DNA from: a virus | Strand: one strand, 5' to 3' | DNA length: 43,989 bases | Virus record (IMG/VR): IMGVR_UViG_3300036670_000255 | Coordinates: 1-43,989 of that record | Shown: positions 16,193 through 43,989 of the stretch, in pieces | How the letters are laid out: every line of letters begins with the position of its first letter | How positions within the stretch are numbered: position 1 is the first letter of the stretch | The notes under the pieces: generated by a model | What the model was told of the DNA's origin: nothing | What the model saw: the letters and a program-made list of their open reading frames with translations, nothing else | Database searches by the model: none | Made by a program: the position numbers and the translations under genes

Positions 16193-18355
16193 ATGGATAA
16201 TAGTTTTCACAACATTCGCAATGCATTTACTGCAATCAACAACAAGCATGCTGAGCAGGATACTGTAAAAAGTAAATCAGCAGCCAAAACCATATACGAA
16301 AATGTAGAGTCACGTGGTAGTATTGTCACAGGAGTCAAAAGAGTGCATCGGCGCCTGAATGAGTTCTACGACTCCTACGCTAAAACCGATGACGGTGATG
16401 AGCAGTCGGGCGAGTTTTATGTGGTTGTCATGAATCCTGAAACTGGTCCATTCATTGGTATGCTCACTGTTGATAATGGTAAATGGCGTGAGGAACAAAT
16501 CAGCGGAAGGGAGCCCTACAAATGGGGCACCAATTATTCAAGCAAATTGACCCCGGAGGATGTGATGTCACGCATGCCTGCGGATTACGGTAATAACTCC
16601 AAGGTGGATGGTCCGTTTGGTACGCAGGATGCTGCTGAGGAATTTATACGGGCAAACGCCGGGAATGATAGTGATACCCCCATGTCCGAAGAACTGGATA
16701 ATTCCAGTGGTAATACTGGCCAGGCAGTGCAAATACACCATTATGGATCTGATGATACAGTGGGATTCACTGTCAACGGTGCAGATGTGTACGACGCGGT
16801 GGTGGATCGTTTTGGTGAGTATATTACTCGCGACGAGAAATCTGGTATCATGTATGTGCCGGAACACATGTGGCCTGAGGTGCGACAGGTTGCACTTAAT
16901 GCAGATGCCAGCGATGACACTGATCTCGACAACGGTTATGACACTGAGCTGGACGAGGTCGCATCCGACACTGCCACTGGACGTATAAACCGTGGCAGCT
17001 ATGGTACCAGCTATGTGGATAATGTCAAGGGCAGCGGCGCCAACCAGGCTGCGCCTGCTAACCAGATTACACGTGGCCGCGGCCGTCCCAAGAAGGCTGG
17101 CTATGATGAGCGACAGGCCAAGATTTCAGCAAACAAAGCAGCAGGCGTGGGCCGTGGGCGTCCTAAAAAGGACAACAAGGTCAGTAACGCTGACGGTTAT
17201 GGCAACAAGCCAGAATGGGCACACTTTGGTGTTCCCAGCAGTGATATCAAATTACCAGCCTGGAAGGGTAAAGTAACCAAGAATCGTCTGAGCGACAAGG
17301 GTACTGAAGCTGAGAGAGTGAACAAGATCAAATCAAACGAAGGCAGCCACGCCAGTGCATTACGTTCACTCAAAGACTACATTGGTGAAGGCATGACACT
17401 GGAAGCCGGACAGCATAATCTGGAATCCATTATCCAGAAGTTCAAGCATGAAGTAAAGAACTTCATGTCCACTGGTGAGCTGGATCAGGATCTGTATCAG
17501 ATGCTACATGAATTTTACATGGACAACGGCGAGATGCCCTATGGTATAGCCAGAGCACGAACTGGTGACCCCTACAAATGGGTATGTGAAAAATTTGGCC
17601 AAGATCTTCCAGCAGTACTTGGCGGCAATACACCAGCCAAGGAAATGGATGAAAGCCCAGTGAACCCTATGGATGTTCCGGCAGTTCAGCGACGCGCAGC
17701 TGGTGCAGCTCCGCTTACAGTGGCACAGGTTACTGGCCCACGATCAGATAGTATGAGCGACCTGCGTAACATGGGCGGGAATAGTGCAAAATTAGCAGCA
17801 CGTAGTAGCTCAGATAGAGAACTGGCCAAGTTACGTGAACTGGCCGGCATGGGATCAACACATGCCATGGAAGGCAGGGATCTGTCTGAAGACATGAGTG
17901 TGTTAGGTTCTGATCAGGAGCAGGATGGGGTTAGCATCAACACCAACTATAACAGCCGTGATGGTAAAAAGTCAGTGAGTATCACTGCTGATGGTGCGGC
18001 TGCTGAGAGCCTGTTGCAGATGCTTAAAATGGCAGGGATGGGACAAAGTCAGTCTGCCGAACGAGCTCAGGGTACAATAATCATGGCTCGCGGCGGATCA
18101 GGTGACGATTCAGACATGGCCTGCATGGGTGATGATGAAGATTATATGGGCGAGGCTGACGAGAACTATGCCAATGAGCCAGCTCCGGTAACCCAGACCA
18201 TGGGTACACAGTTTATGCAGGGCGATGATATGAATCGCCGCAAGCATCAGGACCCACGCACTTCAAATCGTGCAGCCAACCCCATGGCTGAGGATATGGA
18301 TGCCATGGGCCGCAAGCTCATGCAGCAGTACAGCTCAATGAAAATTAAAAAATGA
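16193..18355 (+). CDS. Large acidic/low-complexity protein with two AT-hook motifs
   Basis: 720 residues, mostly disordered and acidic in appearance (DDTDLDNGYDTELDE), with two AT-hook cores: RGRGRPKKAG at about 294-303 and VGRGRPKKDN at about 318-327. AT-hooks bind the minor groove of AT-rich DNA. A segment around 505-610 (LRNMGGNSAKLAARS, LAKLRELAGMGS) is helical, and the end is Met/Gly/Asp-rich (GDDSDMACMGDDEDYMG). It overlaps the next gene by ATGA. I recall long variable proteins in this position in marine T4-like phages but no function. Possible roles are scaffold or DNA-organising internal head protein; neither is shown. Confidence 0.75.
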   Translation: MDNSFHNIRNAFTAINNKHAEQDTVKSKSAAKTIYENVESRGSIVTGVKRVHRRLNEFYDSYAKTDDGDEQSGEFYVVVMNPETGPFIGMLTVDNGKWREEQISGREPYKWGTNYSSKLTPEDVMSRMPADYGNNSKVDGPFGTQDAAEEFIRANAGNDSDTPMSEELDNSSGNTGQAVQIHHYGSDDTVGFTVNGADVYDAVVDRFGEYITRDEKSGIMYVPEHMWPEVRQVALNADASDDTDLDNGYDTELDEVASDTATGRINRGSYGTSYVDNVKGSGANQAAPANQITRGRGRPKKAGYDERQAKISANKAAGVGRGRPKKDNKVSNADGYGNKPEWAHFGVPSSDIKLPAWKGKVTKNRLSDKGTEAERVNKIKSNEGSHASALRSLKDYIGEGMTLEAGQHNLESIIQKFKHEVKNFMSTGELDQDLYQMLHEFYMDNGEMPYGIARARTGDPYKWVCEKFGQDLPAVLGGNTPAKEMDESPVNPMDVPAVQRRAAGAAPLTVAQVTGPRSDSMSDLRNMGGNSAKLAARSSSDRELAKLRELAGMGSTHAMEGRDLSEDMSVLGSDQEQDGVSINTNYNSRDGKKSVSITADGAAAESLLQMLKMAGMGQSQSAERAQGTIIMARGGSGDDSDMACMGDDEDYMGEADENYANEPAPVTQTMGTQFMQGDDMNRRKHQDPRTSNRAANPMAEDMDAMGRKLMQQYSSMKIKK

Positions 18356-18735
18356 AAATAAATGAGATCATTTCAGAGGGCGTTGGGGTCATGCGCCCTG
18401 AGCATCTGGCAACTCAGCCTGGCGGGATAGTAATCTCCCGCGACGTTGGTGGATATGATCGCTTTTATCATATGAACCGTATGTGGATGGCCACTGCCAT
18501 GGCAGATGGTAATGGCAATGGGCCAGTGGATATGGATTCTGCCAGCTGGGTGGAAAAGTATAATGTTCAGCATCCATATACTGAGGCAGAATATAATATG
18601 TTCCGTCAGGCTGAAGCAACTATCCCCACTGAATCCAAAGAAATCTCTCCCTGGTCCAAGAGTCAGGAGCATACTGATATATACAAACAGAGTCCCATGC
18701 AGCCCAAGGGCCCAGTCAAACGGAAAAATAAATGA
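18352..18735 (+). CDS. Small protein with MKINEIISEG N-terminus
   Basis: 127 residues, starting in an ATGA overlap with the gene upstream and ending in one with the next. The N-terminal MKINEIISEG is nearly identical to the MKTIEIISEG start of the ADP-ribosyltransferase-like protein at 42129 and fits the T4 head-targeting pattern (short amphipathic leader, cleavage after Glu). The rest contains GGIVISRDVGGYDRFYHMNR and a hydrophilic C-terminus ending in KRKNK. Function unknown; an internal head protein is the inference. Confidence 0.7.
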   Translation: MKINEIISEGVGVMRPEHLATQPGGIVISRDVGGYDRFYHMNRMWMATAMADGNGNGPVDMDSASWVEKYNVQHPYTEAEYNMFRQAEATIPTESKEISPWSKSQEHTDIYKQSPMQPKGPVKRKNK

Positions 18736-19654: not shown

Positions 19655-20056
19655 ATGAGCGATAATGAATTTATAAGACGTGCCCATCAGAATATCAGCA
19701 TGACTGATGAGCAGACCGTGGAGTTTGTGAAATGCTGTGACCCAGTGGATGGTTATCGATACTTCATGACCACTTACTTTTATATACAGCATCCCACCAA
19801 GGGCAAGCTGTTATACGACCCATATGAATTCCAGGATAGGCTGATTGACAATTACCATGCCAACCGATTTAGTATCTCAATGATGCCTCGTCAAACGGGG
19901 AAATGTCTTACAGAAAGTATAACTATAACTATACGCAATAACATCACTGGCAAGCAGTATAGTTTACCCATAGGACTATTTTATGAATTTAACCAAGCAA
20001 AAAGAGACGGGACTACTATGCCAGAAATCTCAGGATATGAAATTAAAAGCATATAA
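19655..20056 (+). CDS. 17: Large terminase gp17, N-terminal part fused to intein N-fragment
   Basis: 133 residues. Residues 1-83 are the start of gp17, ending in MPRQTGK, the first part of the Walker A motif. Residue 84 is Cys, beginning an intein N-terminal block (CLTESITITIRNN), which continues 50 residues to a TAA. Removing the intein joins RQTGK to TTSAGG at 20546, giving an uninterrupted Walker A, so the insertion site is exact. The gp17 ATPase packages DNA through the portal; without splicing it has no P-loop. Whether this is a genuine split-gene half or the front of a frameshifted single gene is discussed in findings. Confidence 0.85.
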   Translation: MSDNEFIRRAHQNISMTDEQTVEFVKCCDPVDGYRYFMTTYFYIQHPTKGKLLYDPYEFQDRLIDNYHANRFSISMMPRQTGKCLTESITITIRNNITGKQYSLPIGLFYEFNQAKRDGTTMPEISGYEIKSI

Positions 20057-20545
20057 GCAGCTAATATGCAGATGTGGTACAGAGTTCCATGCGACCGGGT
20101 CAACTAGCAAGTTTTGCTCAGTTCTCACAGTGTGGGAAACTGACTATAAACAAAATAAAGAAAAAGTGATTCAAGAATGCATAAACTTTCTGACCAAATA
20201 GAACGGAAGTTCACTGATGTGATTCCATTAAATGAATGGGACATTTTGACTGATACCGGTTGGGCTCCATTGGTGGACATAAAACAAACCATCAAATATG
20301 AAGTCTATGACCTGGAGTTGGCCAACGGTTATAAATTATCAGGGGCAGACACACATATTATGTTTGATGCCAATCTAGACGAGGTATTTATTAAGGATCT
20401 CATCATTGGGTCAGTGGTTATAACAGATGCAGGCCCAGTCAATGTATCGATGATTAGACAGACTGGTGAATCACAGCATATGTACGATGTAGGGGTTGAT
20501 TCCGAGAATCATAGATTCTACTCCAATGGTATACTCAGCCACAAT
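19904..20545 (+). mobile_element. Intein in the gp17 Walker A motif, in non-continuous reading frames
   Basis: Starts with Cys1 (19904) and ends with SHN (20545) before Thr+1. Block A is in the first frame; a zinc-ribbon-like piece (CRCGTEF...SKFC, 20064-20117) lies in another frame (19983-20201); then the first frame again carries KYEVYDLELANG, block B ADTHIMFD (near 20351) and the C-terminal blocks DSENHRFYSNGILSHN. The protein reads through if one A is removed near 20045-20048 and one is added near 20173-20177. The break between blocks A and B is the same position at which the known AceL-TerL and related atypical split inteins are divided. No LAGLIDADG or HNH domain is visible inside. Confidence 0.8.
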
Positions 20546-21859
20546 ACCACCAGTGCTGGTGGCTATTTACTATGGTATGCCATGTTTGTTCCTGACAGTA
20601 CTATTCTAATTGCAGCGCACCAGTACAGCGGCGCCCAGGAAATCATGCAGCGTATCAGATACGCATACGAAATGTGCCCCATGTGGCTTAAAGCTGGTAC
20701 AGAGGCGTACAATCAGGGAAATATTGACTTTGACAACAAGAGTCGTATAGTAGCACGTGCCACCACTGAAAAAACTGGCCGTGGTATGTCATTATCACTG
20801 TTATATCTGGATGAATTTGCCTTTGTTAGGCCCACTATTGCCAAGGAATTTTGGGCTGCCATCAGTCCCACACTCAGCACTGGTGGTAAATGCATTATTA
20901 CCAGTACACCCAATAGCGACGAAGATCAATTTTCCCTGCTGTGGAAGGGGGCAAATAAAAAAATTGATGAATTTGGCATGCCAACTGAGTTGGGGGTAAA
21001 TGGATTCAGCCCATTCATATCACACTGGGCAGAGCACCCAGATCGGGATGAGACCTGGGCAACAGCAGAGCGTGGTAGAATTGGGGATGAACGATTCAGG
21101 CGTGAGCATGGGTTGGAGTTCTTAATTTTTGATGAGACACTGATATCACCCACTACGCTGATTGAAATGGCAGGGATCGACCCAGTGGAAAAACAGGGAC
21201 AGGTCAGATGGTTCAAGCGCCCAGCACGTGGTAACACCTATATGGTGGGACTGGACCCCAGCATGGGCACTGGTGGTGACCCTGCTGCCATACAGATACT
21301 GGAATTACCATCACTAATGCAAGTGGGTGAGTGGCAGCATAACAAAACTCCCATACAGCGGCAGGTCATTATTCTCAAAGAAGTCACTGAATACATCTAT
21401 AATTTAGTTGGTGCAGATACTGACATATACTATAGTGTGGAAAATAACTCTCTGGGCGAGGCGGCGCTGGTTACCATACAGCAAATTGGGGAAGAGAATA
21501 TACACGGAGTTTTTCTGTCAGAACCCAGTAAACCTGGCCAGCCTCGCAGGGGACGCAAGGGATTCAATACCACGCAGCGAACCAAGCTGGCAGTGTGCGC
21601 CAAGGCCAAGAGTTTAATAGAGCATAAAAAACTTAGAATAGCCAGTAAGAATTTAATCAGTGAACTCAAGAATTTTGTGGCCAGCGGTGGTAGCTATGCT
21701 GCAAAAATTGGTGAAACTGATGATCTGGTGATGTCGCTGATGCTGGTAATACGTATGACTCAGGCACTACAAGCATACGATGCCAACCTAGATGAGTTGA
21801 TGAAGGACAGTGAGCAGGATTATTTACAGCCCATGCCTTTTATTATGTCATCTTACTAG
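20177..21859 (+). CDS. 17: Intein C-fragment fused to large terminase gp17, main part
   Basis: 560 residues. Residues 1-123 are intein (block B, and C-terminal HN). From 20546 the gp17 ATPase resumes: TTSAGGYLLWYAM, LIAAHQYSGAQEIMQRI, the Walker B strand SLLYLDEFAF, the coupling motif ITSTPN, and the nuclease domain with GLDPSMGTGGDPAA (metal-binding Asp), a central VENNSLGEAAL and C-terminal DDLVMSLML. gp17 powers headful packaging and cuts concatemers. The ATG at 20177 has only a weak purine-rich stretch upstream (AAGAAAAAG), so independent translation of this half is possible but not compelling. It ends 50 bases before the next small late gene. Confidence 0.9.
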   Translation: MHKLSDQIERKFTDVIPLNEWDILTDTGWAPLVDIKQTIKYEVYDLELANGYKLSGADTHIMFDANLDEVFIKDLIIGSVVITDAGPVNVSMIRQTGESQHMYDVGVDSENHRFYSNGILSHNTTSAGGYLLWYAMFVPDSTILIAAHQYSGAQEIMQRIRYAYEMCPMWLKAGTEAYNQGNIDFDNKSRIVARATTEKTGRGMSLSLLYLDEFAFVRPTIAKEFWAAISPTLSTGGKCIITSTPNSDEDQFSLLWKGANKKIDEFGMPTELGVNGFSPFISHWAEHPDRDETWATAERGRIGDERFRREHGLEFLIFDETLISPTTLIEMAGIDPVEKQGQVRWFKRPARGNTYMVGLDPSMGTGGDPAAIQILELPSLMQVGEWQHNKTPIQRQVIILKEVTEYIYNLVGADTDIYYSVENNSLGEAALVTIQQIGEENIHGVFLSEPSKPGQPRRGRKGFNTTQRTKLAVCAKAKSLIEHKKLRIASKNLISELKNFVASGGSYAAKIGETDDLVMSLMLVIRMTQALQAYDANLDELMKDSEQDYLQPMPFIMSSY

Positions 21860-34013: not shown

Positions 34014-34736
34014 ATGTTTTATTTAATTTACAAAATAACCAATATTGTTAACAACAAAATTTATATAGGTTCCCATAGGACCAAAAATAAAAATGACAAG
34101 TATATGGGGTCTGGTAAATATCTAAATTATGCTATTAAAAAGCACGGCTTAGATAAGTTTACAAAAGAAATTCTATTTGAATTTGACAACGCTAAAGATA
34201 TGTATAGTAAAGAAGCAGAAATCGTAAATGACGATTTTTTATCTGATGAAAATACATATAATTTAAAGAGAGGTGGCTCTGGCGGATTTGATTACATTAA
34301 CTCAAGAGGGCTAGCAATGAACTCTGAGCACGGCAAATTAGGAGCAATCAGAACTAATGAGTTAAGAAAATCTGACCCAATTCTAGATAAAAAATTAAAA
34401 GATGTTTCTGCTGCAAATCTCAAAGCAGCACACAAGGCTGGTCTTATCAAATACGATACTTTTACTGGTAAGAATCATTCTCCCGAATCTAAGAAAAAAA
34501 TAGGAGAAGCAAACAGTAATAATCGAGGTATTAAAAATTCTCAATTTGGTACTATATGGATTACAAATGGTATTGAAAATAAAAAAATAAAATCAGATCT
34601 TTCCATCCCAGATGGGTGGTATAAAGGTCGCAAGTTTCGGGGAATTAGCTCATTTGGGAGAGCGACGGATTTGCAATTCGTAGGTGATCAGTTCGAAACT
34701 GATATTCTCCACCAAGTCATTACCGGACCGGCGTAA
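34014..34736 (+). CDS. GIY-YIG homing endonuclease overlapping a tRNA gene
   Basis: 240 residues. GIY-YIG domain at the start (FYLIYKITNIVNNKIYIGSH, 2-21), GSGKYLNYAIKKHG, catalytic Glu context SKEAEIV, then basic NUMOD-like helices (NHSPESKKKIGEAN). From about residue 209 on the frame runs through the tRNA-Ala gene at 34639-34714, so the C-terminal 30 or so residues are tRNA sequence read as protein. AT-rich and free of the CAGTG word that fills the phage genes, which suggests recent entry. Free-standing nucleases of this type usually cut in or beside the tRNA genes they flank. Confidence 0.82.
   Translation: MFYLIYKITNIVNNKIYIGSHRTKNKNDKYMGSGKYLNYAIKKHGLDKFTKEILFEFDNAKDMYSKEAEIVNDDFLSDENTYNLKRGGSGGFDYINSRGLAMNSEHGKLGAIRTNELRKSDPILDKKLKDVSAANLKAAHKAGLIKYDTFTGKNHSPESKKKIGEANSNNRGIKNSQFGTIWITNGIENKKIKSDLSIPDGWYKGRKFRGISSFGRATDLQFVGDQFETDILHQVITGPA
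34639..34714 (+). tRNA. tRNA-Ala(TGC), inside the 3' end of the GIY-YIG ORF
   Basis: Acceptor GGGGAAT/ATTCTCC, D-stem GCTC/GAGC, anticodon ACGGA/TTCGT with loop TTTGCAA (TGC), T-stem ATCAG/CTGAT, CCA encoded. Fully overlapped by the nuclease reading frame. The stretch 34715-34836 that follows has no gene I can support. Confidence 0.87.
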
Positions 34737-34836
34737 CCCGGGATGTATTGCAGACGAAATGATCAGTGTACTGCGGTATGCCTGCATAGGCTGGAGTGGA
34801 AGGACCACAATGCAACAGGTTTTTTAAGCATTATAC

Positions 34837-34910
34837 TGGGGGTTAGTTAAATGGTATAACCGCGGATTTTGATTCCGCTGTTGCAAGTTCGATTCTTGCA
34901 CCCTCTGCCA
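34837..34910 (+). tRNA. tRNA-Gln(TTG)
   Basis: Anticodon GCGGA/TCCGC with loop TTTTGAT (TTG), discriminator G, CCA encoded; acceptor TGGGGGT/ACCCTCT with T-T at the end, in line with the weak first pair of tRNA-Gln. Confidence 0.85.
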
Positions 34911-35039
34911 ATTTTTACGTGGGCTGTGGATCCTGTCAAGAACTGGGTTCACACCTGTCGCAGTATTAATCTAGGTTGATTACCACTGACATGAATTAAA
35001 AATAATCATTGCTCAGTGGACCAAACTAAATACTACAAT

Positions 35040-35124
35040 GGAAGACTCCCGTAACAGTATTGAAGTGACTTGCTGGGCCCTTGGTCAGTTAAATGACTTT
35101 GCGGTTTGAGTCAGTGGTCTTCCG
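35040..35124 (+). pseudogene. Degenerate tRNA-like relic (class II)
   Basis: GGAAGAC at 35040 pairs perfectly with GTCTTCC at 35117; TGACT/GGTCA could be an anticodon stem but with a 12-base loop, and the T-arm does not close. Looks like a decayed Ser- or Leu-type tRNA. The flanking 34911-35039 has no other gene. Confidence 0.4.
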
Positions 35125-35133
35125 ACAAATACA

Positions 35134-35207
35134 GCCCCTCTAGTTAAATGGTATAACTCCTGTTTAGTAATCAGGCATCGGCAGTTCGATTCTGTCGAGG
35201 GGCACCA
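35134..35207 (+). tRNA. tRNA-Thr(AGT)
   Basis: Acceptor GCCCCTC/GAGGGGC, D-stem GTTA/TAAC, anticodon loop TTAGTAA (AGT), T-loop TTCGATT, CCA encoded. Clearly a paralogue of the Thr(TGT) gene at 36145; the first anticodon base differs (A for T). Confidence 0.85.
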
Positions 35208-35226
35208 ACGTGATGAGAACTTGGGT

Positions 35227-35297
35227 GTGGCCATAACTTAATGGCAAAGTCGTGGATTGTGATTCCGCTTATCTGAGTTCAATTCTCAGTGGCCACC
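35227..35297 (+). tRNA. tRNA-His(GTG)
   Basis: Acceptor GTGGCCA/TGGCCAC, discriminator C (typical of His), anticodon GTGGA/TCCGC with loop TTGTGAT (GTG), T-stem CTGAG/CTCAG. No CCA. Flanks AACTTGGG and CCCAAGTT extend the acceptor helix. Confidence 0.87.
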
Positions 35298-35324
35298 CCC
35301 AAGTTTTCCACCAGGGCACTGTAT

Positions 35325-35353
35325 TCGACAGTTAATTAAATTTAAGTTATAAT
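35325..35353 (+). promoter_or_regulatory. Sigma70 promoter of a short RNA
   Basis: TCGACA, 17-base spacer GTTAATTAAATTTAAGT, TATAAT; nearly identical to the promoters at 32433 and 32568. Confidence 0.75.
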
Positions 35354-35359
35354 AAACAC

Positions 35360-35437
35360 ATGGCAGCAGGAAAGCAACACGATAAGTAACCAACAGGTAT
35401 TTGAACTAATCAATTTGAGGATCCCCCAAATTGTTTT
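35360..35437 (+). ncRNA. Putative small RNA with own promoter and terminator
   Basis: Expected start about 7 bases after the -10 box at 35348-35353; ends in the terminator at 35411. About 78 nt. Its only reading frame is a nine-codon MAAGKQHDK that begins at the transcription start. Function unknown. Confidence 0.45.
35411..35437 (+). terminator. Terminator of the short RNA
   Basis: CAATTTG pairs with CAAATTG, extended by GG/CC, followed by TTTT. Confidence 0.75.
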
Positions 35438-35446
35438 AAATAATGC

Positions 35447-35475
35447 TTTACTTATATTAGGTTTAATGCTATAAT
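35447..35475 (+). promoter_or_regulatory. Sigma70-type promoter before the three-hairpin RNA
   Basis: TTTACT, 17-base spacer, TATAAT, preceding the hairpin block by about 60 bases. Confidence 0.6.
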
Positions 35476-35536
35476 GTATGCATACCAACTAACCATCGTG
35501 TTATTTGGCAGGTTCTTTAACAACTAATAGTAACTA

Positions 35537-35648
35537 CCTTGTATGGTACAAGGGGTTATATTCAACGCCATTGGCCGTCGGACCCTGAAACTGTCCCACG
35601 CCATCAGTGCAGCGTTGAATATAATTACCAGAATTAATAACTCTGGTA
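35537..35648 (+). ncRNA. Three-stem structured RNA
   Basis: Three adjacent hairpins: CCTTGTA-TGG-TACAAGG (35537-35553); a 13-bp stem TTATATTCAACGC/GCGTTGAATATAA (35556-35568 with 35612-35624) enclosing a second irregular stem with GGAC/GTCC; and TACCAGA/TCTGGTA (35626-35648). It is not a tRNA and encodes no protein. T4 has two stable non-tRNA RNAs (species 1 and 2) in its tRNA cluster; this could be an analogue. Confidence 0.6.
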
Positions 35649-35675
35649 TTATTTGCGGGAGTCATGACCCGTGGA

Positions 35676-35750
35676 ACTCGGGTGGTCCAATAGTCAAGAC
35701 ATATCCTCTAGTAGGGATAGATGGTAGTTGCAAATCTACCCCCAATGAGT
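35676..35750 (+). pseudogene. Cloverleaf-like relic
   Basis: Four arms can be drawn: ACTCGGG with CCC(AAT)GAGT, D-like GTC/GAC, TATCC/GGATA with an 8-base loop TCTAGTAG, and GGTAG/CTACC with loop TTGCAAAT. The bulged acceptor and 8-base loops make a working tRNA doubtful. Confidence 0.35.
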
Positions 35751-35884
35751 TCGCATGTTAACGTATATTTCCTGAGTCGGTATCACTACTGGCATGTCAC
35801 GCACCATGGAGTTTGATTCATGGGAATAACAGTATATTTTAACATGCTAAATGAAATATTGATAATGCAAGTTAAAAGGATAAG

Positions 35885-35940
35885 AGCAGATACTGGTATT
35901 TGATCCCAGGTGGGAAGAAGTATCGCCGTTAGTATCTGCT
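35885..35940 (+). other. 10-bp stem with inner hairpin before tRNA-Ser
   Basis: AGCAGATACT (35885-35894) pairs perfectly with AGTATCTGCT (35931-35940); the 36-base interior contains CCCA/TGGG. Possibly a processing signal or relic. Confidence 0.45.
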
Positions 35941-35949
35941 GCGTTTTAT

Positions 35950-36036
35950 GGAGAGTTGGCCGAGCGGCAAGGCAATGGATTGCTAATCCATCACTGGGCA
36001 ACCGGTGGATAGGTTCGACTCCTATACTCTCCACCA
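35950..36036 (+). tRNA. tRNA-Ser(GCT)
   Basis: Acceptor GGAGAGT/ACTCTCC, anticodon ATGGA/TCCAT with loop TTGCTAA (GCT), long variable arm, T-loop TTCGACT, CCA encoded. Confidence 0.9.
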
Positions 36037-36061
36037 TATTTAAGATACATACTGTTATTTG

Positions 36062-36137
36062 ATCTCTATACGTCAATGGATCAGACTACCCGTCTTCGAA
36101 ACCGGTAATCCAGGTTCGAGTCCTGGTAGAGATACCA
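36062..36137 (+). tRNA. tRNA-Arg(TCG)
   Basis: Acceptor ATCTCTA/TAGAGAT, D-stem GTC/GAC, anticodon loop CTTCGAA (TCG) on CCCGT/ACCGG, T-stem CCAGG/CCTGG, CCA encoded. Confidence 0.85.
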
Positions 36138-36144
36138 CATTTTT

Positions 36145-36218
36145 GCCCCTCTAGTTAAGTGATATAACACCTGTTTTGTAATCAGGTATCGGCAGTTTGA
36201 TTCTGTCGAGGGGCACCA
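36145..36218 (+). tRNA. tRNA-Thr(TGT)
   Basis: Acceptor GCCCCTC/GAGGGGC, anticodon loop TTTGTAA (TGT), T-loop TTTGATT, CCA encoded. Paralogue of Thr(AGT) at 35134. Confidence 0.87.
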
Positions 36219-36238
36219 CAATCATCGTGACACATATA

Positions 36239-36309
36239 GTTGGCCTGACGGAGAAGTTAGGCACTAGTCTGCAAAACTGGCAAGATGGGAGCGTTACCCG
36301 TGGCCAACT
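36239..36309 (+). tRNA. tRNA-Cys(GCA)
   Basis: Acceptor GTTGGCC/GGCCAAC, anticodon CTAGT/ACTGG with loop CTGCAAA (GCA), no CCA. D- and T-arms are weak. Flanking CACATATA/TACATGTG lengthen the acceptor helix with one mismatch. Confidence 0.75.
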
Positions 36310-36340
36310 ACATGTGACCTATGATCCAGCAAAAGAAAAA

Positions 36341-36414
36341 ATCTCTATAGTTTAAAGGAAGAACACCGGCCTTTCACGTCGGCGATGCGATGTCAGGATT
36401 CGCTAGAGATACCA
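36341..36414 (+). tRNA. tRNA-Glu(TTC)
   Basis: Acceptor ATCTCTA/TAGAGAT, D-stem GTTT/GAAC, anticodon CCGGC/GTCGG with loop CTTTCAC (TTC), CCA encoded; T-loop atypical (GTCAGGA). Confidence 0.78.
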
Positions 36415-36421
36415 AATTTAT

Positions 36422-36451
36422 TCCCTTGTAGCTCAGTTGGTAGAGCACACC
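36422..36451 (+). pseudogene. 5' half of a broken tRNA (Asn-like)
   Basis: Acceptor TCCCTTG, TA, D-arm GCTC-AGTTGGTA-GAGC identical to the D-arm of tRNA-Asn(ATT) at 38301, then it breaks off at the anticodon stem. The matching acceptor strand CAAGGGA-G-CCA is 840 bases away at 37292-37302. Confidence 0.6.
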
Positions 36452-36467
36452 ATAAATTTAGTTTTAT

Positions 36468-36550
36468 TCCACGAGAGCCGCCGGGTGTGGCAGCAGACTG
36501 TTAATCTGTGTCGAAAGACTAGCTGGGTTCGAGTCCTAGTCGTGGAGCCA
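36468..36550 (+). tRNA. tRNA-Asn(GTT) with a long variable arm
   Basis: Acceptor TCCACGA/TCGTGGA, discriminator G, anticodon GCAGA/TCTGT with loop CTGTTAA (GTT), CCA encoded. The variable arm holds a GTC-GAAA-GAC hairpin, unusual for Asn. Nested between two halves of a broken tRNA. Confidence 0.78.
36512..36533 (+). repeat. Direct repeat, copy 1 (22 identical bases; copy 2 at 37264-37285)
   Basis: Covers the variable arm and T-loop start of tRNA-Asn. The ACTGTT anticodon segment lies exactly 15 bases upstream in both copies, and GGAGCCATTGA follows in both. Confidence 0.9.
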
Positions 36551-36552
36551 TT

Positions 36553-36560
36553 GATAAATA
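36553..36560 (+). promoter_or_regulatory. Late promoter variant 5 nt before a start codon
   Basis: GATAAATA, five bases before ATG 36566 of the HNH gene, no Shine-Dalgarno. Confidence 0.5.
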
Positions 36561-36565
36561 TCTAT

Positions 36566-37195
36566 ATGTATAAATGTATAGAATGTAGTAAATCTTTTGC
36601 CAGTATTATGGCACTAACTGGGCACAAAAGGATGCACGGAGGATCACAGGGCAAATCTAAAAAAATAGTTTGTTCTTGTTTGATTACTAGAAAAATAATG
36701 CCGTACCAGTATTTGGATCAATATCAATCAAAGTTAATTGGATGTAAACAATGTAGTAAGTTGTTTAATCCGACCGTAAATAGAACAACTTTTTGTTCTC
36801 AATCTTGTTCTGCTACTTGTAACAATACGATTCGACCCAAACGATTGAAGAAGGAAAAGCCTCCTAAAATTGTAAAAGAAAAGAAAGTGTATACTGAGCA
36901 GGAGAAGAAAGCGAAAAATGTTTCGGCAGTACAAGCATATAGGGCTAGGAAATATAGTGCAACTTTACCTAGTACTGATCGTAAACTTATTAACAAGATA
37001 TACGAAAGATGTCCTAAAGGATATGAAGTTGATCATATAATTGCACTAGCCGAAGGCGGTGCTCATCACCAAGACAATTTGCAATATCTTCCTGCTATGG
37101 AAAATAGAAGAAAGAATAGAACACAGAATTATAATAAAGATCTTGCAATACGTTGGGAAATCAGTTCTATTGGGGAATTGCCTAGTCCGGTCTAA
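36566..37195 (+). CDS. HNH homing endonuclease with C2H2 zinc finger
   Basis: 209 residues from ATG 36566; the open frame extends upstream only through the tRNA. An N-terminal C2H2 finger (C4, C7, H20, H24), a second CKQCSKLF...FCSQSC zinc element, a basic linker, and a C-terminal HNH: CPKGYEVDHIIALAEGGAHH, DNLQYL, ENRRKN. AT-rich with essentially none of the CAGTG words typical of the phage. It lies between the halves of a broken tRNA-Asn and follows an intact tRNA-Asn. Confidence 0.82.
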   Translation: MYKCIECSKSFASIMALTGHKRMHGGSQGKSKKIVCSCLITRKIMPYQYLDQYQSKLIGCKQCSKLFNPTVNRTTFCSQSCSATCNNTIRPKRLKKEKPPKIVKEKKVYTEQEKKAKNVSAVQAYRARKYSATLPSTDRKLINKIYERCPKGYEVDHIIALAEGGAHHQDNLQYLPAMENRRKNRTQNYNKDLAIRWEISSIGELPSPV

Positions 37196-37248
37196 GGCAA
37201 CGGTCTTAGGCGGACCCTTAAACCTCCCTGCCTACATAGTAGGTGGAA

Positions 37249-37302
37249 ACTGTTGGAACTACACGAAAGACTAGCTGGGTTCGAGCCGAGTCAAGGGAGC
37301 CA
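37249..37302 (+). pseudogene. 3' half of a broken tRNA-Asn, with repeat copy 2
   Basis: Begins ACTGTT (anticodon GTT), contains repeat copy 2 (37264-37285) and ends CAAGGGA-G-CCA, which pairs over 7 bp with TCCCTTG at 36422-36428. The T-stem no longer pairs. The rest of 37196-37474 holds no gene. Confidence 0.6.
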
Positions 37303-37474
37303 TTGAATCATGGAGCAACACGGTGTAATACCTGTGTTCCCAATCAAGTTTTGTATATGAGCCCGAAGATTGAGGGAGCCTTACGTGGGCGACAGACGAT
37401 TGAAATGATCTCCATATGCGCCAATTTTGTTATTTTGCACATTGTGCCAGGAGATAGAGTGCTACAATAATATT

Positions 37475-37548
37475 ACCAGTGTAATTCAATGATAGAATAA
37501 TCGACTGATAATCGATCTACGAAAGTTTGATTCTTTCCACTGGTACCA
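37475..37548 (+). tRNA. tRNA-Ile(GAT)
   Basis: Acceptor ACCAGTG/CACTGGT, D-stem ATTC/GAAT, anticodon ATCGA/TCGAT with loop CTGATAA (GAT), T-stem GAAAG/CTTTC, CCA encoded. Confidence 0.88.
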
Positions 37549-37554
37549 GGTTAT

Positions 37555-37626
37555 GCGGACTGTCAAAGGAGTACATCTGGCCTTCCAAGCCGGAACAGAG
37601 GATTTCGATCATCCTAGTCCGCTCCA
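37555..37626 (+). tRNA. tRNA-Gly(TCC), second copy
   Basis: Acceptor GCGGACT/AGTCCGC, anticodon CTGGC/GCCGG with loop CTTCCAA (TCC), T-stem AGGAT/ATCCT, CCA encoded. D-arm is short (TGT/ACA). Confidence 0.78.
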
Positions 37627-37632
37627 GTTTTT

Positions 37633-37706
37633 AGGCTTGACATGAACTGTGTTCATGCTGTTATGACATGACAGTTTAGGCAGTTAGATTCTGCACTAGC
37701 CCACCA
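37633..37706 (+). tRNA. tRNA-Val(GAC), degenerate
   Basis: Anticodon CTGTT/GACAG with loop ATGACAT (GAC), D-hairpin ATGAA/TTCAT, CCA encoded; the acceptor AGGCTTG/CTAGCCC has two mismatches and the T-loop is TTAGATT. May be inactive. Confidence 0.5.
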
Positions 37707-37797
37707 AGTTTTGTTAGCCCTAACAAATTTAGTTTATTCTCAGATCTAGATATTTTGATCAGCATGCACCAGCTGCATAAACACGTTGGATTACCAT

Positions 37798-38310
37798 ATG
37801 AAAATTTGCCCTAAGTGCAATGCGGGACACGAAAAGTCTGGAAAATACTGTTGTAGAAGTTGTGCCAATAGCAGAATATTTACCACGGAGGCCAAAGAAA
37901 AAAAACGAAATAAATCGTTATCATTTTGGTCACAGTATAATGCAGATGAAAGAAAAGAACTCCATAAAGAAAAGATGGGGTTATACGACTTTGATCATCA
38001 TCAAAAACAAGTACAACAGGCAAATAGGATGAGGGAGTGGAGTAAGCCCTACGAGGAAATGAGTCATCCGTCAGTTCGTAAAAGACTATTGCATGAACGA
38101 AACTACATCTGCGAAGAATGTGGTACAGGTAATACATATAACGGAAAGCCGCTAAGTCTAGAACTAGACCACAAAGACGGAAATAGTAAGAATAACAAAA
38201 TTGAAAATTTAAGAATACTTTGCCCTAACTGTCATTCACAAACTCCGACACATAGAGGAAAGAATATTAAATACAAAAGGTTGTTATTAGATAAGAATAT
38301 TGGCACATAG
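37798..38310 (+). CDS. HNH endonuclease ending inside tRNA-Asn(ATT)
   Basis: 170 residues from ATG 37798. An N-terminal CPKCNAGHEKSGKYCCRSC zinc ribbon, a basic helical middle, and a C-terminal zinc HNH: CEECGTG, LELDHKDGNSKNNKIENL, RILCPNCHSQTP. The stop codon TAG is the T8-A9-G10 of the following tRNA-Asn(ATT), so the gene abuts its likely target. AT-rich and lacking the CAGTG word, hence probably a recent arrival. Confidence 0.85.
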   Translation: MKICPKCNAGHEKSGKYCCRSCANSRIFTTEAKEKKRNKSLSFWSQYNADERKELHKEKMGLYDFDHHQKQVQQANRMREWSKPYEEMSHPSVRKRLLHERNYICEECGTGNTYNGKPLSLELDHKDGNSKNNKIENLRILCPNCHSQTPTHRGKNIKYKRLLLDKNIGT

Positions 38311-39126: not shown

Positions 39127-40209
39127 TTAGTTGAATATTAATTGATATAATACTGGGTCAACATCAATTAATTTAATTGGTCGAATCTCTTGTAATGGGG
39201 CAATATACTCTGCTAATTTTTGCTTGGATCCGGGAATTACATTGGAACCATAGGCCGCAAACACTGCTCCCATGCCGCATGCATCATAACTGGCCTTGTC
39301 TCCGAAAATAGCAGTATCTCCGTCCCAGTGTACTGGTGACATATATGCTGGGTATTCGAGTATTGAATAACTAATCTTAATATCCTGCCCGGCAAAGTAT
39401 TGAACAATGTCAGGAAAATACATGGAATTAAATACACTTATTGTAATATGTGCCTGCAGGTAGTTAATCACTGTTTTGTAAAAATTTAAATTTTTAACTG
39501 CATTTCCCCAATCAGCACCGTACCTGGTCCAAGAAATTTTCTCATCCACCTGGTCCAGGCTGGCAATCAATGACAGGTGACCCCATTTATAATCAGTGAG
39601 TAATTTTTTAAATTCTTTGCTTATAGTATGGCAATTGGTTGTGACCTCTAACCAAGTACGCTGATGTAGTCCCAACTCCACTAGTTCATACAAAAAAGAA
39701 ATAATTTTCTTGTTGATAGTGGGTTCGCCGCCCAGTAGACCTAACAGTATGGTATCATGATGATTATAACTTTCAATTATTGTTTCTCTCAGTGCCAGTA
39801 ATGGGTCAGTGGTGTCCAGTGGGTATACACTGATATTAATTCTCTTTTTGTCATCCTGAATCCTGGAGCTACGACTCTCGTCACAACTCCAGCAGGCTAA
39901 ATTGCATAAATTACTCAAATTCAGCTGATATCTATCAGGAAATTTACTAATAGGTGCAGGTAATATATCCATACGATAACTATGACCCTGTAGTTTTTCG
40001 TTATTTGTACATGATATACACTGTGAGGGCAACTTGTCTCCACTAAGATCTGATCGTAAATTAGTCATTTCTGGGCCAGACCACCAATCATTAAATGTAT
40101 CATACCGGTAACTTTTAAATGGCTTGAATGCGCAACATGCTCGATACCCCCCGTCTGGGGTAGTGAATACTTGCCTATAGGGTACATAACAGAGAGTTTT
40201 TATGGTCAT
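39127..40209 (-). CDS. Radical SAM protein (twitch-type)
   Basis: 360 residues from ATG 40209, chosen because GATAAATA sits 4 bases upstream in the pattern seen elsewhere; an in-frame ATG at 40245 is the alternative. The radical SAM cluster motif is C102-x3-C106-x2-C109 (NLCNLACWSC), with GGEPT at 160-164 for SAM binding. Before it, RACCAF (C25-C26) and QCISC (C64, C67) form a Cys-rich N-terminal region that may bind an auxiliary Fe-S cluster. Phages carry such twitch-domain radical SAM enzymes without known substrates. It lies between tRNA genes and shares the region with an oxygenase and a cysteine desulfurase that could feed its clusters. Confidence 0.8.
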   Translation of the reverse strand: MTIKTLCYVPYRQVFTTPDGGYRACCAFKPFKSYRYDTFNDWWSGPEMTNLRSDLSGDKLPSQCISCTNNEKLQGHSYRMDILPAPISKFPDRYQLNLSNLCNLACWSCDESRSSRIQDDKKRINISVYPLDTTDPLLALRETIIESYNHHDTILLGLLGGEPTINKKIISFLYELVELGLHQRTWLEVTTNCHTISKEFKKLLTDYKWGHLSLIASLDQVDEKISWTRYGADWGNAVKNLNFYKTVINYLQAHITISVFNSMYFPDIVQYFAGQDIKISYSILEYPAYMSPVHWDGDTAIFGDKASYDACGMGAVFAAYGSNVIPGSKQKLAEYIAPLQEIRPIKLIDVDPVLYQLIFN

Positions 40210-40213
40210 GTTG

Positions 40214-40221
40214 TATTTATC
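40214..40221 (-). promoter_or_regulatory. Late promoter variant 4 nt before a start codon
   Basis: Minus strand GATAAATA, four bases (CAAC) before ATG 40209. Confidence 0.5.
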
Positions 40222-40272
40222 ACTATAAATTAATGTCGTGCGCATGGTGTAGTTTGTTCCAATATAATTTTA

Positions 40273-40442: not shown

Positions 40443-41117
40443 ATGAAACAACACCTGCTATGGAGCACAATTGAGCTAGCTAGTCCACCAGAATGGTTAG
40501 CTGCTGAGGCATTACAAACTTTTAGTAGTCGCGATCAGGGAGTATATCAAGGAGTGCACGAAACAAATAATTGGAAAAAATCCAGCACACACCGTCAACT
40601 AACAATGAAGGATGGCAGTGTGGAAAAATGTGCATTTATACATACTTCTATTCTTAGTCACCACAGTAGTAATTGGGCTAGACTTGCATTGTCACTTGAC
40701 AATCATGTGGAAATTGATGTACGATCAGCAGTCACAGTACCAGGGAATAATAACGGTGGCCCGCACCGTGACTATTCCAGGAACTATATACTAATTTATG
40801 TATTCAATGCAGGAAGTGATGATCAGCGTACTGTATTTTATCGGGATTCACGTGGTGCCCCCATATCAGTCCCATTGGCTGAATCGGTGGACCGATACTC
40901 AAAGGGGACAGTGGAGGGGACACACTTTTTCAATGATTTTGGGCCACTTGACATAATTGAAGAAGCCAAATTTCCAGTGGGACAATGGGTAATAATGAAC
41001 GGGACAGTATTACATAGCATTACCAATGTGATGCAAGGTAGAAAGACATTGCAGATCAGTTTAGATTATTTGCCCGATTCCCTAAAACTGCTGAATCCGA
41101 TCTATTATACAGAGTAA
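40443..41117 (+). CDS. 2OG-Fe(II) oxygenase-like protein
   Basis: 224 residues. The Fe(II) facial triad is visible: H108-R-D110 in GGPHRDYSRNY, H191 in GTVLHSITNV, and R200 (GRKTLQIS) placed to bind 2-oxoglutarate. The double-stranded beta-helix strands around them fit (YILIYVFNAG, GQWVIMNGTVL). Phages have many such enzymes, acting on DNA, proteins or metabolites; the substrate is not evident. A CATAAATA late-type motif lies 50 bases upstream. It is followed by a short gap and the convergent ADP-ribosyltransferase-like gene. Confidence 0.72.
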   Translation: MKQHLLWSTIELASPPEWLAAEALQTFSSRDQGVYQGVHETNNWKKSSTHRQLTMKDGSVEKCAFIHTSILSHHSSNWARLALSLDNHVEIDVRSAVTVPGNNNGGPHRDYSRNYILIYVFNAGSDDQRTVFYRDSRGAPISVPLAESVDRYSKGTVEGTHFFNDFGPLDIIEEAKFPVGQWVIMNGTVLHSITNVMQGRKTLQISLDYLPDSLKLLNPIYYTE

Positions 41118-41169: not shown

Positions 41170-42129
41170 CTATTTTGGTTGATTATCCACTGGATTCCAT
41201 TTATTGGTAATCCATTGTGCCAGCATTGTGGTATTGGATAATTTGTTTTTCTGCATAAACGCATTTATTCTAGCAGCCTGGTCGTATTCTTGATTATTAT
41301 TAGGCTTGCGGGCATTGGCTAGGTCGTTACCCAGACCTGAATCATCACTTGGGCTATATGCTCTGTTCAGCTTGGTCAGCAAGTTCTTGGCTGCCTGACT
41401 CAGTCTACTTCGATCAGTCATGATGATCAAATCCAGCCAGGCTTTTAACCCTCTTTGAGTTTTGTAATTGGTATATTCCCTATACCTATCCTTTGAGGTA
41501 GTGGAATTCAGTGCATCCTTGTAATAGGAAAGGTCAGGAGTATAGGGCACATTCGCTGGTTTGTTTCCTCGAATAGGGGCTTGCGATAGGGGAACTGCCC
41601 TGCGCGTATCTTGTAATTTCCATGCCGATTCATCAGTATAAGCATATACATTGATCCCACGTTTTTTCGCTGCTAGTAGTATTGATCGTGCAGCGGCACT
41701 CTTGGATACCTCACTGCTGGCGCCAGAGGGGATCAGTACATGCACTGCGGTTACGCTATCCAGTGGTATGGCAGGGGTCTTGCTAAGCACACGATCTTCC
41801 TGTTCACTGCCACGTGTGGGGTCGTTTAACCAGGCGCGGTCCCAGTAATCCACTGGCTTAACTGGGTATCTGGCACCCAGCCACCGACCATCCAGGTTGA
41901 ACATCACTGCCCCACCATACGGTCGCATGGCAAAATCAGCAGTTTTATTTCTGGCAGTGCTTAGGAAGTAGGGATACCCACGCACCGCATACAATTCTTC
42001 TGACTTGTTGCCAGTGGAACTACTGAGCAAAAACTGACCGGACTCGAAAATAGCCACAGCACTATTTAGGCTAGTATAGTGATACAGCACACTGGATGCA
42101 CCTTCTGATATAATTTCAATGGTTTTCAT
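41170..42129 (-). CDS. ADP-ribosyltransferase-like protein with head-targeting-like N-terminus
   Basis: 319 residues. Residues 1-10 (MKTIEIISEG) match the short leader of T4 internal head proteins (cleavage expected after E9) and the start of the protein at 18352. The next 120 residues have an ART layout: SVLYHYTSLNSAV (H17), GYPYFLSTARNK (54-62) and SEQEDRVLSK (108-117), that is H ... [ST] ... E. T4 Alt is an ADP-ribosyltransferase packaged in the head with such a leader and injected to modify RNA polymerase. The C-terminal 150 residues are polar and unrecognised. The ATG lies 5 bases after a CATAAATA late motif, in line with a virion protein. Confidence 0.6.
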   Translation of the reverse strand: MKTIEIISEGASSVLYHYTSLNSAVAIFESGQFLLSSSTGNKSEELYAVRGYPYFLSTARNKTADFAMRPYGGAVMFNLDGRWLGARYPVKPVDYWDRAWLNDPTRGSEQEDRVLSKTPAIPLDSVTAVHVLIPSGASSEVSKSAAARSILLAAKKRGINVYAYTDESAWKLQDTRRAVPLSQAPIRGNKPANVPYTPDLSYYKDALNSTTSKDRYREYTNYKTQRGLKAWLDLIIMTDRSRLSQAAKNLLTKLNRAYSPSDDSGLGNDLANARKPNNNQEYDQAARINAFMQKNKLSNTTMLAQWITNKWNPVDNQPK

Positions 42130-42134
42130 AAATT

Positions 42135-42142
42135 TATTTATG
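42135..42142 (-). promoter_or_regulatory. Late promoter variant 5 nt before a start codon
   Basis: Minus strand CATAAATA, five bases before ATG 42129; no Shine-Dalgarno. Confidence 0.55.
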
Positions 42143-42264
42143 ATGGTAACTCAGGTACCGTCTGGTCATATAATAATTATTCACATGGATATAACCGTTA
42201 TGCTGGATACTTTGGCTAAATATTATCTCAGGGCAGTGCAGTGCTCTGCAACTCAAGAAACTCA

Positions 42265-43527
42265 ATGACATCTGAAATACCCACCACAAGTTCTAATCCA
42301 GTGGCCCTTGACAGCGCCACCCAATTTCCAGTGTACCTGGATTATTCTTCCACCACCCCCATAGACCCAAGAGCCGTTGACCGAATGATTCCTTTTTTAC
42401 GTGAGCAATACGGTAATGCGGCCAGTCGCAGCCATGCCTACGGCTGGGCAGCTGATGCAGCAGTAGAGGCAGCCCGAGGTCAGGTGGCACAACTGGTACA
42501 TGCCGACTCCCGGGAAATCGTATTCACCAGTGGTGCCACTGAAAGTATCAATTTAGCCATCAAGGGAGCAGCGCACTTCTATCGGTCGCGCGGAAATCAT
42601 ATCATTACCGTACGCACTGAGCACAAGGCCACCCTGGATTCCTGCCGCGAATTGGAGCGTGAGGGATATTTGGTAACCTATTTGGAGGTATTGCCCAATG
42701 GTCTTATTGACTTTGCACAGCTGGAATCAGCAGTAACCACCAATACCATAATAGTGTCAGTGATGCATGTGAACAACGAAATTGGGGTGATTCAGGATAT
42801 ACATCGTATAGGGCAACTATGCCGCAAACACGGTATTATTTTCCATGTGGACGCTGCACAATCCACTGGCAAGGTGGAAATTGATCTCAGCCAGCTACCA
42901 GTGGATCTGATGAGTTTCAGTGCACATAAAACATATGGGCCCAAGGGTATAGGCGCATTGTATGTGTGCCGGAAACCGCGTGTGCGTGTACAATCCCAAA
43001 TGCATGGTGGCGGCCATGAGCACGGAATGAGGTCAGGTACGCTGGCAGTGCATCAAATTGTGGGAATGGGTGAAGCATTTGCTATTGCCCAGGAAGAAAT
43101 GGCAGTGGAAACAGTGCGTATACGTGAACTACGGGATCGTCTGCTGGCTGGGCTGGGCGATATTGAAGAATTATATGTGAATGGTGATATGACCCACAGG
43201 GTTCCGCATAATTTGAATATAAGTTTTAATTATGTGGAAGGTGAAAGCATGATCATGGCGCTCAAGGATTTGGCTATATCTTCTGGGTCGGCTTGTACAT
43301 CTGCCAGTTTGGAACCCAGCTACGTACTACGTGCACTGGGAAGGAATGACGAACTTGCTCACAGCAGCATTCGATTTACACTGGGTAGATTTACAACCCA
43401 GGCAGAGGTGGACTTTACCATACAGCTGGTAAAGTCCAAGATTGCCAGATTGCGTGAATTATCCCCATTATGGGAAATGTACCAGGATGGTGTGGATATC
43501 AGCAGTATCCAGTGGGCAGCCCACTAG
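42265..43527 (+). CDS. iscS: Cysteine desulfurase IscS
   Basis: 420 residues from ATG 42265 (E. coli IscS 404). All functional residues are present: PLP Lys222 in [14 protein letters not shown], His120, [12 protein letters not shown] phosphate loop, and catalytic Cys344 in [14 protein letters not shown]; the C-terminus [21 protein letters not shown] follows the bacterial housekeeping enzyme. It takes sulfur from cysteine for Fe-S clusters, tRNA thiolation and other uses. A GCTAAATA late-type motif lies at 42215 but no iscR or iscU accompanies it. The gene is rich in the CAGTG/CACTG word of the phage, arguing for long residence in this genome rather than assembly error. Confidence 0.92.
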
Positions 43528-43536
43528 CAAACATCA

Positions 43537-43565
43537 TTGCACCTGAATGACATCTGTGTTATAAT
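43537..43565 (+). promoter_or_regulatory. Sigma70 promoter for cyoB
   Basis: TTGCAC, 17-base spacer, TATAAT, ending 56 bases before the cyoB ATG and directly after iscS. Confidence 0.7.
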
Positions 43566-43620
43566 AAATTATTAGCATAACACTCAGTAATTCATGTGCT
43601 AACTATGAAATAAACATAAT

Positions 43621-43989
43621 ATGAACAATACATTTGATCCAGCCACATTTATATTTGGCAAACTCAGCTGGGATGCATTGCCATTCCACGACCCCATACT
43701 ACTGGCTACTTTTATCATGGTGGCATTGGGTGGTTCGTCATTGCTAGCAGCCATGACCTATTACAAGGTCTGGGGAACACTATGGACAGACTGGATCACC
43801 AGTGTTGACCACAAAAAAATCGGCATCATGTATTGCGTGCTTGGCTTAGTAATGCTGTTGCGTGGCTTTTCTGACGCGCTGATGATGCGTGCCCAGCAGG
43901 CCATGGCCTTTAATGGTTCGGGTGGCTTTTTGCCACCGCACCACTACGATCAGCTGTTCACAGTGCATGGCGTGATCATGATCTTCTTC
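43621..43989 (+). CDS. cyoB: Cytochrome bo3 quinol oxidase subunit I (CyoB), 3' truncated by window
   Basis: First 123 codons, open to the window edge. The segments [15 protein letters not shown], a first membrane helix ([20 protein letters not shown]), [31 protein letters not shown] and [22 protein letters not shown] match CyoB closely from its N-terminus. CyoB (about 660 residues) is the haem-copper catalytic subunit of the proton-pumping bo3 oxidase, reducing oxygen with quinol in the host inner membrane. In bacteria it follows cyoA; here it follows iscS with its own sigma70 promoter. Whether the gene is complete, and whether cyoA, C and D follow, is outside the window. Confidence 0.92.

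Follow-up and report, generated by a model that had tools for sequence, protein, structure and literature searches.

A predicted capsid-packaged ADP-ribosyltransferase family of large phages with a putative cleavable leader

We wondered what an ADP-ribosyltransferase (ART) might do for a phage when its gene starts with a short peptide resembling those that direct T4 internal proteins into the head. Such a gene lies at positions 41170-42129 on the minus strand of IMG/VR record IMGVR_UViG_3300036670_000255, a record of 43,989 bases that was analysed over its whole length and is called the window here. A preliminary description, made from the letters alone and naming no strand, had proposed a candidate Alt-like injected enzyme that might have arisen independently of Alt. 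Our analysis favours, with a probability of about 0.74, a capsid-packaged and injected ART that belongs to a new family and is not an Alt orthologue. The parts of the gene on which the argument turns are as follows.

41170-42129, minus strand: open reading frame (ORF) of 319 residues comprising leader, ART domain and C-terminal helical domain; ATG start, full-length homologues in viral contigs
42103-42129, minus strand: leader MKTIEIISE (residues 1-9); predicted cleavage behind E9 at I-S-E↓G, in agreement with the L/I-x-E motif cut by T4 gp21
41602-42102, minus strand: ART domain, about residues 10-176, with a DarT/Tpt1-like fold (AlphaFold2 model and structure matches)
42079-42081, minus strand: H17 of the H-x-T motif in strand 1, a predicted nicotinamide adenine dinucleotide (NAD) contact; invariant in 42 homologues
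41959-41961, minus strand: S57 in FLSTAR, the Y/S position of the ART triad; invariant
41950-41952, minus strand: R60, after S57 in FLSTAR; invariant
41791-41805, minus strand: E109-Q-E111-D-R113, predicted ExE catalytic motif; E109 and E111 invariant, R113 at least 90%
41173-41562, minus strand: C-terminal helical domain, residues 190-319; kept in most relatives

Fold and active site of the ART domain

The ORF begins with MKTIEIISEGASSVLYHYTS and encodes the N-terminus MKTIEIISEG; H17 falls in LYHYTS, while FLSTAR spans residues 55-60 and EQEDR residues 109-113. In the AlphaFold2 model (predicted local distance difference test (pLDDT) 85.7, predicted template modelling score 0.84) an ART domain of approximately residues 10-176 is joined to a C-terminal helical domain, and the leader is unstructured, with residues 1-10 of low confidence (mean pLDDT 55). 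The model, Foldseek and VIA all identify a split-sheet ART fold. Among solved structures, Foldseek ranked DarT best (E-value 2e-4), followed by Tpt1. VIA returned Tpt1 7yw4 (Z 10.6, 112 residues aligned, root-mean-square deviation (rmsd) 2.5), DarTG 7yk3 (Z 10.1, 148 aligned, rmsd 4.1) and DarT 7omw (Z 9.3); other ART toxins scored lower, at Z 5-6. The preliminary description had named a non-ART predicted structure as grounds for dropping its reading, and the model passes this check. By sequence, a PDB profile search gave no match at E<=10; the C-terminal domain alone matched no solved structure, a known fold being still possible for it.

An alignment of 42 diverse homologues, with a mean column identity of about 21%, has H17, S57, R60, E109 and E111 invariant and T19, I27, G81, D94 and R113 conserved to at least 90%. 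The H ... FLSTAR ... EQEDR layout that had been read from the single sequence is therefore upheld, and the [H/R]-[Y/S]-[E] active-site pattern of ARTs is present as H17, S57 and E109/E111, the positions being assigned by strand order. A catalytically dead ART fold serving as a structural internal head protein could be conceived on the example of T4 IPII and IPIII, which have no known enzyme activity (PMC9026906). We consider this improbable, as the catalytic-type residues are invariant despite the low column identity and are retained by paralogues inside one phage whose bodies have diverged.

Which known ART is this protein most like? DarT1/DarT2 (PF14487) share the closest fold and the H-x-T motif. 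In DarT1, H17 and T19 of H-F-T bind NAD+ at the adenine-side ribose, a Ser sits mid-triad and Q150-x-E152 provides the [Q/E]-x-E element (PMC11543638); the counterparts here are H17-Y-T19, S57 and E109-x-E111, matched by motif order and not by superposed coordinates. Unlike DarT, family members carry a leader and are phage genes. The PF14487 profile matched none of four records at E<=1, the window included, and judged by sequence profile the protein is not a member of the DarT family. Tpt1/KptA (PF01885) resembles the protein in its C-lobe fold and YHxT motif, and a KptA profile aligned to the family with an hhalign E-value of 0.0013 over that motif, which is a weak sequence link. The protein differs in missing the N-lobe with its R-H...R residues: KptA has invariant R21, H22 and R69 upstream of YHGT, and here only 16 residues precede H17. 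An RNA 2'-phosphotransferase of Tpt1/KptA type, acting in tRNA repair, would agree with Tpt1 as top VIA match, with the profile similarity at YHxT and with the 22 tRNAs in the window. The missing N-lobe and a separate KptA in Dickeya phage JA11 make it very unlikely.

The difference from Alt that had been suspected is real. T4 Alt, a head-packaged R-S-E ART, is alike in superfamily, in a short leader for the prohead protease and in predicted injection. The family has H-S-ExE instead of R-S-E, a fold on the DarT/KptA side, another size and another C-terminal domain, and the ART-gene protein shows neither a match to the Alt/VIP2 profile (PF03496) nor an R-S-E site. A diverged Alt orthologue would account for the similar predicted delivery route; with no ADPrib_exo_Tox match in the window, H in place of R in strand 1 and a separate Alt-type ART gene in three relatives, we regard this already disfavoured idea as scarcely credible. 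ART-PolyVal and Tox-ART-HYD2 proteins are likewise multi-domain, predicted virion-delivered and sometimes repeated phage ARTs (Iyer et al. 2017, PMC5512222). ART-PolyVal (PF18760) is distinguished by an H-Y-D site where the family has S57 and E109/E111, and its profile did not match the ART-gene protein.

The fold lies on the DarT/KptA side, with enzymes that act on nucleic acids, but many ARTs that modify arginine in proteins also have an ExE motif; as possible targets we give protein and nucleic acid about equal weight.

The leader peptide, its bearers and the prohead protease

The cleavage motif of T4 gp21 is L/I-x-E, with the cut behind the E, and ten N-terminal residues of IPIII are sufficient for targeting to the head (PMC9026906). 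The N-terminus of T4 IPII, MKTYQEFIAE, is annotated as a removed 10-residue peptide. MKTIEIISE↓G ends in the same motif (I-S-E, residues 7-9) and resembles the IPII/IPIII capsid targeting sequence in its MKT...E start, its length of about 10 residues and its L/I-x-E end; the bodies are unrelated, and family leaders vary from phage to phage. Among the 38 members of the family alignment with residues at the leader-site position, 34 have an x-E site exactly 8 residues before H17, and 30 of these are strictly L/I-x-E, a motif with a background of 1%. The site is also kept in front of internal domain copies: IIE↓R in locus L017, INE↓RATDIVYH in L020, LTE↓LATDVLYH in L024 and, three times, LKE↓GITDEVYHFT in L071. 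A Sec signal was considered and rejected, the hydrophobic stretch of the leader being too short.

If the leader is an address, other proteins of the same phage should bear it. This is the case in the window:

18352-18735, plus strand: unrelated 127-residue protein with leader MKINEIISEG, the same leader as the ART gene

Among all Met contexts of the window this ORF scores second only to the ART gene (29, against 13 for the next), and its leader is encoded by synonymous codons that differ from those of the ART gene; its protein found no homologue in family and phage searches. In related loci the shared leader takes other local forms. MRATEFIAE stands on the ART of L016/L019, with MRAQEFIVE, MRATEFIVE and MRASEFINE on other ORFs; MKYIKIYEQFLNE is found on several ORFs of L044; and the local leaders are MKIDxLYESLLEE in Slickus01, MKIQLAVA in Lu11 and MEMxLALA in HRDY3. 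After dereplication, the local leader was present on 40/451 non-ART ORFs of the neighbourhoods and at 6/1757 internal Met contexts (odds ratio 28); before it, the counts were 55/740 ORFs and 5/2912 internal methionines. Over the nearly whole genome of Lu11 the leader occurs on 10/352 ORFs vs 0/1680 internal methionines, nine of the ten within 154-170 kilobases, and in Slickus01 on 7/185 ORFs vs 0/910. Since synonymous codons differ between the shared peptides, selection acts on the leader peptide, and a shared DNA or RNA element was rejected on the same grounds.

The company in which the leader is found is consistent with delivery. L040:3694-5004 encodes a fusion of Nudix and Alt-type ADPrib_exo_Tox domains with the leader MRLLELKE directly upstream of a family ART, and Slickus01 has an ART-PolyVal beside its five family paralogues, with the same leader. 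Leader-bearing neighbours besides the L040 fusion are an ART-PolyVal (L004), a Nudix (L055), a GNAT-like (L015) and a weakly Kinase-PolyVal-like protein. Effectors of such types have been proposed to be head-packaged (PMC5512222; PMC9503650).

We searched 20 records for the T4-type prohead protease (PF03420, Peptidase_S77) and for gp23. Eleven have the protease, the same eleven have gp23, and in 11/11 a family member carries an x-E leader. Both protease and gp23 are missing from the named genomes of Lu11, HRDY3, Sen-NF and JA13, whose family members carry an LAxA leader or none. The remaining five records, the window among them, are contigs without end repeats and are uninformative. The contrast of 11/11 with 0/4 corresponds to P 7e-4 if the records are taken as independent. 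The reading of the N-terminus as a T4-like head-targeting leader is supported by the sharing of leaders among unrelated genes, by the constant position of L/I-x-E and by the way in which leader and T4-type protease vary together.

These results also bear on the alternative of a DarT-like nucleic-acid ART that is made and acts within the infected cell, superinfecting DNA being one conceivable target, and whose N-terminus has nothing to do with packaging. The nearest folds, DarT and Tpt1, speak for such an enzyme, as do leaderless relatives in the Dickeya JA13 and Salmonella Sen-NF phages. It leaves unexplained a leader that is phage-specific, sits on unrelated genes, ends in a prohead-protease motif and tracks the protease type; moreover, the neighbours of the ART gene in the window gave no Pfam match to DarG or to a NADAR or macro-type antitoxin that could neutralise it. 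We judge this explanation unlikely, though less so than the other alternatives.

Distribution, paralogues and genomic context

Homologues were found by tblastn in 33 phage records, and degenerate scans of viral contigs added about 65 further loci. The nearest viral-contig relatives are 40-44% identical over the full length, and a profile search recovered 100 ORFs in the collected loci, duplicates among them. The tblastn carriers include Salicola SCTP-2, Pseudomonas Lu11 (three paralogues) and HRDY3, Alishewanella Slickus01 (five), Dickeya JA13 and Salmonella Sen-NF (two each), the Vibrio K566 and D484 groups, Microcystis Mel-JY01 and others. In these ten or more named large phages every copy is a 'hypothetical protein' or lacks annotation. 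No family of Pfam, NCBIfam or PADLOC covers the ART-gene protein, which matches PHROG 13493 weakly. A single-sequence scan of viral contigs yielded no homologue, nor did two scans of genome contigs and one of plasmids, which are insensitive at one or two short patterns each; at the sensitivity used so far the distribution is phage-only. Because all homologues found lie in phage or viral contigs, we assign the ART gene to the phage.

Several loci have multiplied the domain. L072:4513-9624 holds seven tandem overlapping paralogues with x-E leaders, and L071:1701-6680 encodes a 1659-residue protein in which the ART domain occurs three times, along with several linkers of ESKSLLKE↓ type; this protein is possibly a prohead-processed polyprotein. 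In L020:2763-6185 a predicted polyprotein of 1140 residues combines a cytidylyltransferase-like domain, DUF5661, a full Cu/Zn superoxide dismutase and an ART domain, with x-E sites separating its parts; ParB_N and amidoligase-like domains are further partners of the ART domain in polyproteins.

The window itself contains T4-type genes (tail sheath, sheath stabiliser, terminase, UvsX-like and gp32-like, partly by inspection), and the closest terminases are those of Agrobacterium phage Atu_ph07 and of the Pseudomonas Callisto/Paride group, at 48-53%. The large terminase subunit (19655-21859) is split by an intein-like segment, with its start in 19655-20056 and its continuation at 20177-21859, and homing-endonuclease-like ORFs of GIY-YIG and HNH type lie among the cluster of 22 tRNA genes at 34014-38310. 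Beside the ART gene lie genes for a radical SAM/SPASM protein (39127-40245), a relative of which is found near the ART gene of L048, and for an unassigned 224-residue protein (40443-41117). The stretch 42241-43989 holds two bacterial-type genes, one for an IscS-like cysteine desulfurase and, after it, cyoB (cytochrome o oxidase subunit I), which is present with its 5' part. The desulfurase matches PHROG 12787, relatives of the two genes in the phage collection resemble bacterial sequence under phage names, and the cyoB fragment had no matching viral contig. The right end of the window may be chimeric, host-derived or unusual phage cargo.

A proposed route from capsid to host

The gene is preceded by a box that would suit expression late in infection:

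42135-42142, minus strand: CATAAATA, late-promoter-like box, one mismatch to the T4-type TATAAATA, 5 nucleotides upstream of the ATG

TATAAATA occurs seven times in the window where 2.05 are expected, and an upstream box with at most one mismatch precedes 20/79 family genes vs a background of 5.4%, which is suggestive at most, the loci being related. Alongside the computed fold, conservation, leader pattern and protease co-variation, we infer late expression, packaging, cleavage, catalysis and a host target, with packaging, cutting and injection drawn by analogy to T4. The product would be made late in infection, and its nine N-terminal residues would bring it into the prohead, after which the phage prohead protease would cut behind E9. 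The mature enzyme would be ejected alongside the DNA and, on reaching the next host, immediately transfer ADP-ribose from NAD+ to a host macromolecule. Given a short address tag that is predicted to be cut off, large phages probably package the ART in the capsid and inject it along with the genome.

Several points weigh against the preferred reading. A search of the literature turned up neither virion proteomics nor activity measurements for a family member. Members in Salmondvirus-type phages are leaderless, so packaging may not be general. The loci are related by descent, hence the P values are not independent and the real evidence is weaker. The window, a fragment, shows no head protease or capsid gene of its own (0 matches). 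Finally, DarT has a catalytic Arg in its NAD loop (R51/R52), ahead of the Y/S position, for which the family shows no obvious equivalent there: no Arg is conserved from H17 to S57, though R60 may take its role.

A capsid-delivered DarT/KptA-type enzyme that ADP-ribosylates host nucleic acid and is cut by the prohead protease from multi-effector polyproteins, with one tag for the whole effector cassette, is a more specific and clearly more tentative proposal. If it were true, a fold that bacteria use against phages would have been turned into a weapon of the phage. The presence of as many as seven paralogues in tandem hints at an arms race in which host targets or defences are the opponents. 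Until now the case for head-packaged ARTs has rested mainly on T4 Alt and on gene neighbourhoods; in the present family an ART catalytic site is linked to a readable and probably cleavable address tag, and public records leave the whole family unannotated. Such a tag would allow sequence-based discovery, with each gene that bears the local leader and L/I-x-E becoming a candidate for an injected protein.
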